Of a stretch of DNA of 64,000 nt, positions 48,153 to 58,345 are shown in pieces. Each line of letters starts with the position of its first letter. Position 1 is the stretch's first letter. This DNA is from Leptolyngbya boryana PCC 6306 (GTDB taxonomy: Bacteria; Cyanobacteriota; Cyanobacteriia; Leptolyngbyales; Leptolyngbyaceae), in NCBI RefSeq assembly GCF_000353285.1, contig NZ_KB731324.1:762577-826576 (forward strand), given 5' to 3'. Under the pieces are notes generated by a model. It was not told the DNA's origin and did no database searches. It worked only from the letters and a program-made list of their open reading frames with translations. Made by a program: the position numbers and the translations under genes.

Positions 48153-48170
48153 ATTCATATTAATTCTCAA
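48153..48170. promoter_or_regulatory. Fur-like box before AraC copy 3
   Basis: The reverse strand reads TTGAGAATTAATATGAAT, close to the recurring element. It lies about 100 bp from the regulator start at 48054, which it probably serves. Confidence 0.55.
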
Positions 48171-48274
48171 TAATTATGAAGTCTCAGCCGATTATTACAT
48201 GTTCCAAGATTGTTTTTATGCCATTTTTGCTCGTTAAACTAACGAAGTGAGTGATTTAGAGTGAGATCAGAATA

Positions 48275-48292
48275 GATCACATTAATTCTCAA
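48275..48292. promoter_or_regulatory. Fur-like box before the lipoprotein-permease operon
   Basis: The reverse strand reads TTGAGAATTAATGTGATC, nearly identical to the site 122 bp away that faces the divergent AraC gene. It lies 71 bp from the ATG at 48364. Confidence 0.55.
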
Positions 48293-48363
48293 GAAAAGAG
48301 AGGAATGACGTGTTTAATCCATCACGTAGCAGAGTAGTTTGACTAGCATTCAGGGAGAAGTCC

Positions 48364-49281
48364 ATGTCTCAGTTTAGTAGGCGGCAGTTTCTTGTTACAG
48401 CGCTAGCTTCTGCCGCCGTAGCTTCTTGTACACGCCAAAATCAATCTCGCTCCAACATCTCAACAACTGCAAGCCGTATTGTCGCGCTCGAATGGGTGTA
48501 TGTCGAAAATCTCTTGGCATTAGGAATTCAACCGATCGGAGTCGCAGACATTCGAGGCTACAAAACCTTTGTAGATATAGAACCAAAGCTAGCAGAATCC
48601 GTGGTAGATGTGGGTACTCGTCAAGAACCGAGTTTAGAAGCGATCGCTCAACTCCAACCCGATCTGATCATCGGCACTCAACTCCGGCATGAGACGATCT
48701 ACGATGCTTTATCCGCGATCGCGCCAACGCAGCTTTTTAACCCTTATCCAGACTCTAATACTCTGTCCCAGTTTGATGAGATGCAACAGACGTTTAGAGC
48801 GATCGCACAACGAGTCGATCGGCGGGAAGCTGGTGAAACGGTGTTACGTCAAATGCAAGATACTTTTCAGGCAGCCAGCGATCGTCTGCGTTCTTCAAAG
48901 CAAAACACGCGCTCTTTTATTCTAGGGCAGTTCAACGAAGCCACTCCCCAGATTCGGCTATTCACAGATGATGCAATGGCAGTACAAATCCTCAACCAGA
49001 TTGGATTAAAAAATGCGTGGAAAGGACAACTCGATCGCTTCGGGTTCAATACTGTCGGAATTGAAGCATTCCCCAAAATTGAGCAAGCAAGCTTTCTCTA
49101 CATTGCTGGAGAGAATAACACTCACCTCAAGCAATTACGGGAGAATCCAGTCTGGAAAGGATTAAAGTTTGTCCAAGAGCAACGGTTGTACCCTATTGGC
49201 GCAGAAACTTGGGTGTTTGGCGGCCCTAAAAGCGCTCAATTATTGGTTGAAAAAGTGACTGCTACACTCACTGAAAAATGA
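48364..49281 (+). CDS. Iron-siderophore substrate-binding lipoprotein with twin-arginine signal
   Basis: A 305-residue protein preceded by GGGAGAAG. The N-terminus SRRQFLVTALASAAVASC combines a twin-arginine motif with a lipobox Cys at residue 22, so it may use the Tat route; the other binding proteins in the island have ordinary Sec signals. The mature part follows the FhuD pattern: RIVALEWVYVENLLALGIQPIGVAD and IAQLQPDLIIGTQLRHE. It overlaps the fused permease gene by 4 bp (ATGA), as fhuD and fhuB often do. Probable role is hydroxamate-type ferric siderophore binding. Confidence 0.93.
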   Translation: MSQFSRRQFLVTALASAAVASCTRQNQSRSNISTTASRIVALEWVYVENLLALGIQPIGVADIRGYKTFVDIEPKLAESVVDVGTRQEPSLEAIAQLQPDLIIGTQLRHETIYDALSAIAPTQLFNPYPDSNTLSQFDEMQQTFRAIAQRVDRREAGETVLRQMQDTFQAASDRLRSSKQNTRSFILGQFNEATPQIRLFTDDAMAVQILNQIGLKNAWKGQLDRFGFNTVGIEAFPKIEQASFLYIAGENNTHLKQLRENPVWKGLKFVQEQRLYPIGAETWVFGGPKSAQLLVEKVTATLTEK

Positions 49282-55509: not shown

Positions 55510-56538
55510 CTAGACTTGCACTGAATTCAATGCTTTCTCAATTCGCTTGAAGTCGAAGCCCATGGCTCGAAGGGCGTGCCAGAGATGCCCTTGTAAGAAG
55601 AAGAACGCCAAGAAGAAATGAGCATTTGCCAACCAAGAGCGGGGAGTATGAGCGCCCATGGGTAACTGAACGGTATCCGCAAAGTAAGGCGTGATTCCGA
55701 GCTTAACTTCGAGTGCAGGTCCGTAGAACTCAACCGGATAAGCAAGTGTATTCACTGCACAGAAGTAAGCCGCAACAAATCCAGCGAGCGCAATTCCACC
55801 CAAAGAATACGAGAGAATCGCCTCACCCGAAAAGATCAACAGATTTCTTGCCCACTTTAATGGTGGAACAAGAATATGCCAGATTCCACCCCCGATGAGC
55901 AGCAATCCAACATAGACATGTCCTCCGACCAAATCTTCCAAGTTATTTACACTAGCAAAATGCGTTTGATATCCATAGATGATTGCTGGATTCAGCGTTG
56001 GCTCAGTCACGACACGAACATCTTGAATCGTCGCATCATAGATTCCACCGAAGAACATTGCTTTGGTAACGAGCAACAATGCGCCGATCCCTAACAACAA
56101 GAGATGATGACCTAAGATAAATCCGAGGGTTTCAGGCTTTTCCCACTCAAAGTGGAACTTCCGTGCTTGTCCTGTTGCTTTTTTGAGATCTTGCGGCGCT
56201 CTGAAGGTGTGGAACAATGCTCCTGCTCCCAATACCGCAGAAGAAATCAAATGAACTGCACCCACAACAAAGTAAGGATAGGTATCGACGATTTGTCCCC
56301 CTTTACCGACTCCTAACCCCAAAGTTGCAAGGTGCGGCAGTAAGATCAATCCTTGTACACCCATGGGAAGCTCTGGCGAATAGCGCGAGATTTCAAATAG
56401 CGTAAACGCTCCAGCCCAAAACGTAATGAGGGCAGCTTGAGCAACGTGAGCTGCAATGAATAAGCCCGATAGATTGGCAAACCGGGCATTTCCTGCCCAC
56501 CAATCATATTGAACTTCCGAATTTCCGTAACTTTGCAT
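55510..56538 (-). CDS. isiA: IsiA, iron-stress chlorophyll-binding protein (CP43')
   Basis: A 342-residue thylakoid membrane protein preceded by AGGAG. The start [25 protein letters not shown] and the segment [21 protein letters not shown] are IsiA hallmarks. Six membrane helices carry His ligands for chlorophyll, and the large lumenal loop of CP43 is absent, matching the usual length of about 340-350. IsiA forms rings round photosystem I when iron is scarce. Upstream on the same strand is only an isiB remnant, whereas the usual order is isiA then isiB. Confidence 0.96.
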
Positions 56539-56601: not shown

Positions 56602-56810
56602 CTAAATGCCAAAGTCTGTTTTCAGTTGAGTGACCCAAGCTTGAACGCGATCGTCTGTGAGATCGGATGGGTTATCTTCATCGATTGCGAGTCCGCAGAA
56701 CGGATTCCCTCTCACCGCTTTCGATTGACTATGCTCATAGCCTGCGTTAGAAATATCCAAATCCACAACTGAATCGCCGCCAAATTTCTTTGAACTGTGA
56801 TGCTAGTCAT
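56602..56810 (-). pseudogene. isiB: Internally deleted flavodoxin (isiB remnant)
   Basis: Read on the minus strand, the frame gives KKFGGDSVVDLDISNA followed directly by GYEHSQSKAVRGNPFCGLA and then IDEDNPSDLTDDRVQAWVTQ, ending LKTDFGI and TAG at 56602-56604. In flavodoxin the FGGDSVVDL block is near residue 30 and the GY...SKAV block near residue 128, so about 90 residues, including most of the FMN site, are missing from the middle. An in-frame TAG at 56803-56805 and a probable frameshift remove the N-terminal FMN loop as well. A full flavodoxin is not encoded here. Confidence 0.8.
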
Positions 56811-56870: not shown

Positions 56871-56966
56871 AGTTCAAAACAGAGTTTAGCATTTTTACTG
56901 CGATAAATCCTCAATAGTTAATCATTAAATAATATTAAGATGGGTAGTATAGCAGCGAATAAATAC

Positions 56967-57035
56967 AAAAAAGCTCCGGTTGTAGCGTGAGGGAGGAGAG
57001 TACCCTACAACCGAAGTGAAATTAGATTGAGCTGA
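56967..57035 (-). ncRNA. Candidate iron-stress small RNA (IsaR1-like?)
   Basis: On the minus strand CGGTTGTAG (57013-57005) and CTACAACCG (56985-56977) form a perfect 9-bp stem, followed by GAGC and TTTTTT (56972-56967), a Rho-independent terminator. The 19-base loop contains CTCTCCTCCCTCAC, which can pair with AGGAG-type ribosome-binding sites. A short transcript of about 65-70 bases would start near 57030-57035, downstream of a palindrome at 57066-57088. This is the form of the Fur-controlled cyanobacterial sRNA IsaR1, but I cannot confirm homology. Confidence 0.4.
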
Positions 57036-57170
57036 ATATGCTCATCTACGGTCAAATCAGTTGGGTTGGATTCTTGTTTCAGAATCAATAGAAATTTGCG
57101 TCTGTGCCTTTTCTCCTCAAATAACGAATTGCGAATGAACGATCGTCCGCACAAATTCAATAGCAAGCTA

Positions 57171-57190
57171 TTGAGAATTAATTTCAGATT
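57171..57190. promoter_or_regulatory. Fur-like box before the heme-type operon
   Basis: TTGAGAATTAATTTCAGATT lies 103 bp from the permease start at 57293 and matches the boxes at 48153 and 48275. Confidence 0.6.
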
Positions 57191-57292: not shown

Positions 57293-58345
57293 ATGGTTAA
57301 AAAGGACTTGCGAAAAGGGGAGCCGAATTCTGCTAATTCGCGAGCTTTGCAGCACCATTCTGCTACGTTTAGAGCGCTCTTGCTCACCCTTGGACTGATC
57401 ATCGCATTAGTTCTCACCATGATTCTTGCCCTGTCCCAAGGCGCTATCAAACTGAATGTTATTGAACTATGGCAGGCTTTATTCCGACAAGGTGAGGCAA
57501 CACAGCAAACAATCATCTGGGATTTGAGAATTCCTAGGATTATGTCAGGCGTGTTAGTTGGTGCTTCACTGGGTATGTCGGGAGCGATGCTACAAGGAAT
57601 GCTCCGAAATAGTTTGGCAGACTCCTTTGTGTTAGGCATTTCATCTGGTGCTGGTCTGATTGCTGTTATTCTGATTACAGTCTTAAAAGCGCAGGCACTC
57701 GTTCCCATTGGTGCTTGGATAGGTGCGCTCATTTCAGTGACGATCGTGTTTGCCCTGGGCTATCAAGGAGGACGAATTGTGAGTGAGCGATTGATTCTGG
57801 GCGGAATCGCGATCGCGACTCTATCCGGTTCTGCTCAAACGTTGCTGCTGCTATTCGCAGATGAAGGACAGGTACAAGGCGTTCTGAATTGGTTAATCGG
57901 AAGCTTGAATGGGCGCGGCTGGGCAGAACTTCATCTGGTTGCGCCCTACGTTGTGATCGCGCTGATCAGTGGATGTTTACTGGGTAAGACGATTAACTTA
58001 CTCAATTTAGGGAACGAGATGGCAGTGAGTTTGGGTGTGTCATTAGTTCGATCGAGAATTTTAATTGGAGCCACTGCAAGTCTACTAGCAGCAAGCGCAG
58101 TGAGTATTTCGGGATTGATTGGATTTGTCGGATTAGTTGTGCCGCATGGGGTGCGATTGATCATTGGCAATGATTATCGTTGGGTGTTGCCAACGAGCGC
58201 AATCGCGGGTGCATTAGTTCTGACATTGGCAGATTTACTTTGTCGAATTGGCTCGATTGAATTTCCAGTCGGTGCTGTGACTGCCTTGCTCGGCTCCCCG
58301 TTGTTCATTTGGTTACTTTACCGCCGTCGCCAAGGAGTATTTTGA
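57293..58345 (+). CDS. FecCD-type permease, possibly for heme
   Basis: A 350-residue membrane protein. IWDLRIPRIMSGVLVGASLGMSGAMLQGMLRNSLAD near residues 73-108 and GLIGFVGLVVPHGVRLIIG near 273-291 are the FecCD signatures. The TGA at 58343-58345 shares a base with the ATG of the ATPase gene (TGATG), so translation is coupled. A single permease gene implies a homodimer, as in HmuUV or BtuCD. It faces a lipoprotein and a heme-type receptor, so heme or another macrocycle is a plausible substrate. Confidence 0.92.
   Translation: MVKKDLRKGEPNSANSRALQHHSATFRALLLTLGLIIALVLTMILALSQGAIKLNVIELWQALFRQGEATQQTIIWDLRIPRIMSGVLVGASLGMSGAMLQGMLRNSLADSFVLGISSGAGLIAVILITVLKAQALVPIGAWIGALISVTIVFALGYQGGRIVSERLILGGIAIATLSGSAQTLLLLFADEGQVQGVLNWLIGSLNGRGWAELHLVAPYVVIALISGCLLGKTINLLNLGNEMAVSLGVSLVRSRILIGATASLLAASAVSISGLIGFVGLVVPHGVRLIIGNDYRWVLPTSAIAGALVLTLADLLCRIGSIEFPVGAVTALLGSPLFIWLLYRRRQGVF

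Follow-up and report, generated by a model that had tools for sequence, protein, structure and literature searches.

A candidate Fur-controlled small RNA gene ahead of isiA in Leptolyngbya boryana and its relatives

IsaR1 is reported to act on photosynthesis mRNAs in Synechocystis and to pair with transcripts for iron proteins (petF, petJ, suf, sodB, pet, acnB, hemA, chlN); PsrR1, another small RNA, has a CU-rich pairing region. PMC6202907 describes IsaR1 as an iron-stress RNA of Synechocystis, 68 nt long and conserved in cyanobacteria; its induction by iron starvation and its action on mRNAs are described there and elsewhere (PMC6202907, PMC6753628, PMC8136909). NC-181, an RNA of about 70 nt that increases alongside isiA in low iron according to PMC3516471, is, we infer, probably the same RNA. 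A separate short RNA, derived from the isiA 5′UTR in Synechocystis under low iron, is placed by PMC5386190 among the actuatons, units that combine an sRNA with an mRNA. Literature searches combining L. boryana with isiA, or with small RNA, transcription start site and iron, gave no title on such an RNA among the matches listed (10 of 612 for the second).

The locus considered here lies in a 64,000-nt stretch of the genome of L. boryana PCC 6306 (the window, in which all unprefixed coordinates are given), a member of a cultured species. A 5-kb piece of this genome's second contig is identical to plasmids from four L. boryana strains, and a piece of genome G003 is identical to a plasmid from Leptolyngbya sp. 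NIES-3755. A terminator-like hairpin occupies 57016-56974 on the minus strand. Its perfect arms, CGGTTGTAG (57013-57005) and CTACAACCG (56985-56977), form nine pairs around the 19-base loop GGTACTCTCCTCCCTCACG (57004-56986), and a further three, including a G-U, lengthen the stem to 12 (57016-57005 with 56985-56974). Six T follow on its 3′ side (56967-56972, minus strand). This is the make-up of an intrinsic terminator, a stable GC-containing stem and then a T run, with a loop longer than usual. An earlier note on this DNA had described the 9-bp perfect stem, the 19-base loop, the six T and the minus-strand location correctly, and had rightly placed them between isiA and iron transport genes. 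Its 5′ end for the candidate RNA, 57035, coincides with no detectable feature, and the module described below starts near 57184.

The hairpin stands out from its surroundings. Folded as a 50-nt RNA it reaches -19.7 kcal/mol (z -4.3), and none of 200 shuffled sequences does as well. One stem of at least 9 Watson-Crick pairs before a T run occurs in the window, against 0.05 expected per 64 kb (mean of 20 first-order Markov sequences, loops up to 25 allowed); a simple terminator scan had missed it because that scan's loop limit was 8. The loop has a run of 12 pyrimidines, CTCTCCTCCCTC, which resembles an anti-Shine-Dalgarno sequence. Over 113.6 kb of the window and same-genus DNA, a scan with zero mismatches and loops of at most 20, which is blind to the other family members, gave 40 terminator-like loops; this run is the longest in any of them, and the runner-up has 7. 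Each of the three covariance models introduced below (R1, E 0.01; R2, E 1; R3, E 0.05) finds one place in the window's genome, so the hairpin is not a repeated element.

Upstream of the hairpin on the same strand lies a FurA-like box, AAATTAATTCTCAATAGCT (57166-57184), that matches 16 of the 19 positions of the Anabaena FurA consensus given in PMC4005646, AAATAAATTCTCAATAAAT; all box scores here count matches to that consensus. In simulated 230-nt stretches the best box scores at least 13 in 16%, 14 in 3.4%, 15 in 0.5% and 16 in 0.02%. A promoter-like TATTGA (57157-57162, minus strand) begins 22 bases past the start of the box, and the sigma-70 consensus promoter finds no match at the module in the window. 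The order is thus box, promoter-like stretch, short non-coding stretch and terminator hairpin, with the isi promoter region next. Together the box, the promoter-like element and the terminator predict a small RNA of about 185 nt (56967-57150, minus strand), its 5′ end being placed by assumption some 34 bases past the start of the box. Aligned with its counterpart in the related genome G004, the module stretch has gaps of 4, 6 and 1 bases, which argues against a protein.

Downstream on the minus strand, the isi promoter region holds a stretch (56874-56901) that is kept in G004 and in NIES-3755, and on the plus strand a weak FurA-like box (56901-56919) of 14/19, a score expected by chance about 2.5 times per 64 kb. 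Between this promoter region and isiA lies a remnant of isiB, the flavodoxin gene, which the earlier note lacked: a 54-aa ORF (56602-56766, minus strand) that by eye resembles the C-terminal part of the intact G004 isiB and has no match in a Pfam search. isiA itself (55510-56538, minus strand) belongs to the Pfam PSII family and is 94% identical to a NIES-3755 protein. On the other side of the module, a divergent FecCD iron-transport permease gene, identified by Pfam (57293-58345, plus strand), is followed by genes for an ABC ATPase, a periplasmic binding protein and a TonB receptor. Since the upstream gene is divergent, there is no neighbouring minus-strand gene in the window for the hairpin to terminate. 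The box could additionally serve the FecCD gene.

FurA-like boxes also occur elsewhere in the window. Two, of 16/19 and 15/19, lie on the plus strand at 48157-48297, ahead of a periplasmic-binding-protein gene (48364-49281) that probably serves iron uptake. The one at 48157 is, with the module box, one of the window's two boxes of 16/19, and its locus is a rough positive control; the 15/19 box is at 48279. Further boxes of 15 and 14 are present as well.

Five copies of the module are found in four of the eight genomes of the genus examined: one each in the window, G004 and G002, and two in NIES-3755. A DNA search of 58 genomes returned one relative besides the window's own genome, G004, and reading isiA loci across the genus added the NIES-3755 isiA copy. 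A covariance model of these three hairpins (R1) then revealed the second NIES-3755 copy, ahead of isiB, and a four-sequence model (R2) revealed the copy in G002. All five carry AATCTGA ahead of the box, then a TATTGT-like element (in four), a stretch of variable length, and the hairpin with its T run, with isi-promoter-like sequence downstream. Box scores are 16 (window), 14 (G004), 15 (NIES-3755 isiA copy), 13 (NIES-3755 isiB copy) and 15 (G002). Where the promoter-like element is present it always begins 22 bases after the box start, as TATTGA, TATTAT, TATTGT and TATTGT. The distance from box to hairpin runs from 45 to 168 bases, and with the same assumed start the predicted RNAs measure about 184 nt in the window, 172 in G004, 126 and 84 in the NIES-3755 isiA and isiB copies, and 62 in G002.

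The stem is kept in all five copies and a pyrimidine loop in four, with the runs CTCTCCTCCCTC in the window, CTCTTCCTT in G004 and TTCCTCCTT in G002 as well as before NIES-3755 isiB; the copy at NIES-3755 isiA has lost its pyrimidine loop. The hairpins of the window, of G004 and of the NIES-3755 isiB copy fold better than all of 200 shuffles, whereas 2 shuffles equal that of G002 and 11 that of the NIES-3755 isiA copy. Pair changes on both sides of the stem number 2, 4 and 3 in three alignments; out of 500 shuffles, 52, 12 and 42 respectively do as well. With few related sequences, this covariation is suggestive of a conserved stem and is not proof of one.

In NIES-3755, isiA (L047) and isiB (L120) stand at separate loci, each with a module copy of its own. 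In G002, the contig end after the isi-promoter-like sequence corresponds to the DNA just 3′ of NIES-3755 isiB (62 of 74 positions identical): isiB has been lost altogether from this locus and the module kept. isiA is detected at E 1e-100 in three of the eight genus genomes, and all three have the module; G002 has the module and no isiA match at that threshold, and the other four genomes have neither at these thresholds.

The reading we favour, with a little less than even confidence, is a small RNA gene under Fur repression that would end at the hairpin. It is suggested by the recurrence of box, promoter-like element at fixed spacing (four of five copies), non-coding stretch and terminator as a unit, in five copies from four genomes. 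Its main rival, doubtful in our view and still to be taken seriously, is a plain insulating terminator that stops read-through into the isi promoter; the Fur box would then serve isi as a distal operator, or in the window the divergent FecCD gene, and the loop would be accidental. The hairpin does invariably stand ahead of the isi promoter region. Four of the five copies also have an ORF of the same direction upstream of the module, whose transcript the hairpin might end or insulate, and these ORFs slightly lower our confidence in a small RNA. The loops vary among copies, one being without pyrimidines, and at the second isiBA locus of G004 an unrelated hairpin terminator stands in the module's place, after an upstream gene. 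Insulation, however, does not predict that a box lies upstream of the hairpin in every copy, even where no FecCD gene is adjacent, nor that pyrimidine loops recur in most of them. Nor does it predict that the same apical hairpin, GCAATTCCTCCTTATTGC, stands exactly preserved in G002 and the NIES-3755 isiB copy within different outer stems, or that the module outlasted isiB in G002. Ahead of the NIES-3755 isiB copy, the ABC gene ends at L120:1345 and by eye is followed by an apparent terminator of its own.

Several observations weigh against the small RNA itself. The promoter-like element is no sigma-70 consensus, and the NIES-3755 isiB box scores just 13, a value reached in 16% of the simulations. 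The NIES-3755 isiA copy has neither the pyrimidine loop nor as distinct a fold, the covariation is weaker in two of the three alignment sets, and in the window the loop does not favour start regions.

That last point concerns the role the earlier note had given the loop, which was to pair with AGGAG-type start regions, that of isiA included. We scored it against the starts of 39 predicted ORFs in the window (at least 120 codons, ATG start). The median pairing energy at these starts is -7.7, against -7.4 inside genes (p = 0.5). Just over half of shuffled loops (53%) do as well at gene starts by their median, which lends the general claim no support in the window. A match of six pairs at the isiA start does exist; it ranks 13 of 39, is equalled by 8.5% of shuffled loops, and does not support isiA as a special target. 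Repression of isiA under iron starvation would also run counter to the induction of isiA. The window, G004 and the copy at NIES-3755 isiA, taken by themselves, would fit a loop that is a pure accident. That idea is weakened by the NIES-3755 isiB copy and G002, whose loops contain UCCUCCUU, a sequence that resembles the 3′ end of 16S rRNA.

A regulated leader is a further alternative. Here the Fur-box promoter would also feed isi by read-through, and the short RNA would have its 5′ end in common with a longer isi mRNA, much as in an actuaton. The tandem arrangement of module and isi promoter fits such a leader, as does the short isiA 5′UTR RNA that PMC5386190 lists for Synechocystis in low iron. 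We consider it very unlikely, as isi has a promoter region of its own past the hairpin, the module persists in G002 without isiB, and by eye one Synechocystis genome has no counterpart of the module upstream of isiA.

The earlier note had pointed to IsaR1, and conservation in relatives had been named beforehand as a test; the module passes it within the genus and not beyond. A search of 388 genomes of the class with the third model (R3) gave strong matches (62.7-74.1 bits) in four, all of this genus, under strict filters that lose some weak matches. A further 31 weak matches scored 22.2-31.9 bits, and 26 of their loci were inspected. None of the 26 has a box of at least 14 within 220 bases upstream. 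The best boxes, at two loci, score 13, equal to the weakest family member, and one locus has no upstream sequence; 22 of the 26 show a run of at least five T on reading, like ordinary terminators. Of six weak R1 matches outside the genus one was read, and ten R2 loci were checked for boxes, the strong G002 match among them. Five one-mismatch matches to the apical hairpin outside the genus were set aside, with boxes of at most 13 and no visible terminator. At locus L060 of genome G010, a Fur-like TCTCAATAGG stretch, a long hairpin and then an isi-type promoter precede an isiA-like gene; that hairpin is perhaps an unrelated counterpart of the module.

That the module is simply the local IsaR1 gene is quite unlikely. 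Its Fur-like box and iron-gene surroundings are those such a gene might have, and the roughly 60 nt predicted in G002 come close to the 68 nt of IsaR1, but about 185 nt are predicted in the window. No Rfam match in the window is named IsaR1, and an RNA described as cyanobacteria-wide (PMC6202907) sits poorly with strong matches confined to 4 of 388 genomes in one genus. Five Synechocystis genomes searched with R2 contain no credible match (top score 22.3 bits), in a comparison where models of 3 or 4 sequences and strict filters could miss a distant relative. A search for IsaR1 itself by box pattern in one Synechocystis genome was abandoned: the first pattern matched 78 times per strand (32 in its control), without a short RNA at the loci examined, and the second 31 and 38 times (32 and 34 in the control). 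Among 30 loci of the second scan, the sole notable hairpin sits after an aldolase-like ORF. IsaR1 was not found in a guessed Synechocystis neighbourhood either. Palindromes of the TGATAATNATTATCA type before several ORFs (L095-L103, Synechocystis genome G388) are probably Zur boxes, and those inspected among the first-pattern matches seemed to be of the Zur type.

The comparison as a whole thus upholds part of the earlier proposal: it supports a short RNA, probably Fur-controlled, with a pyrimidine, anti-Shine-Dalgarno-like loop in four of five copies, and does not support IsaR1 identity or isiA as a special target. In the small RNA reading, Fur would block the module promoter when iron is sufficient. 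In iron starvation the RNA would be made and would terminate at the hairpin, ahead of the isi promoter. Its loop might then pair with the ribosome-binding sites of some mRNAs and lower their translation, in the way reported for IsaR1. A bolder version, which we regard as speculative and on balance unlikely, is a genus-specific Fur-repressed small RNA distinct from IsaR1, carried as a cassette before isiB or isiA, whose terminator loop copies the ribosomal anti-Shine-Dalgarno sequence (UCCUCCUU) and damps translation of several mRNAs in iron starvation. If true, there would be a second, lineage-specific Fur-controlled RNA beside isiA/isiB, and regulators could arise anew next to genes of the same response; an anti-Shine-Dalgarno loop could also persist while the sequence around it changes.

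Among the RNAs described in other systems, RyhB of enterobacteria shares the logic of a Fur-repressed small RNA (PMC3516471) and is absent among the window's Rfam matches. PsrR1 is alike in pairing of anti-Shine-Dalgarno type; it differs in its high-light regulation and psa/cpc targets, as described in PMC6202907, and has no Rfam match in the window. IsrR (RF01419) is likewise an RNA of the isiA locus. It is antisense inside isiA, whereas the candidate lies outside isiA and on its coding strand, and the IsrR match (55968-56145, plus strand), the window's only Rfam match at gathering scores, is not at the candidate. Of 145 cyanobacterial genomes, 143 have a match to the IsrR model, with scores often close to 170 bits; the window's genome has two, the other at G000:C1:3581838-3582024. 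What the model detects is probably conserved psbC/isiA coding DNA, and by itself a match is therefore no proof of an antisense RNA.

The isiA 5′UTR actuaton shares with our prediction a short RNA at the isiA locus in low iron. It comes from the isiA leader, whereas the module, as its sequence reads, has a box of its own, precedes the isi promoter region and does not start at the isiA promoter. IsaR1, compared by description, differs in that the module is restricted to one genus, is tied to isi loci and predicts a longer RNA in the window. Over the five copies the predicted lengths range from about 62 to 185 nt, counted from the assumed start. The two RNAs are alike in their proposed logic, a Fur-controlled promoter (judged here from boxes of 13 to 16 of 19), induction in iron starvation and action on mRNAs.
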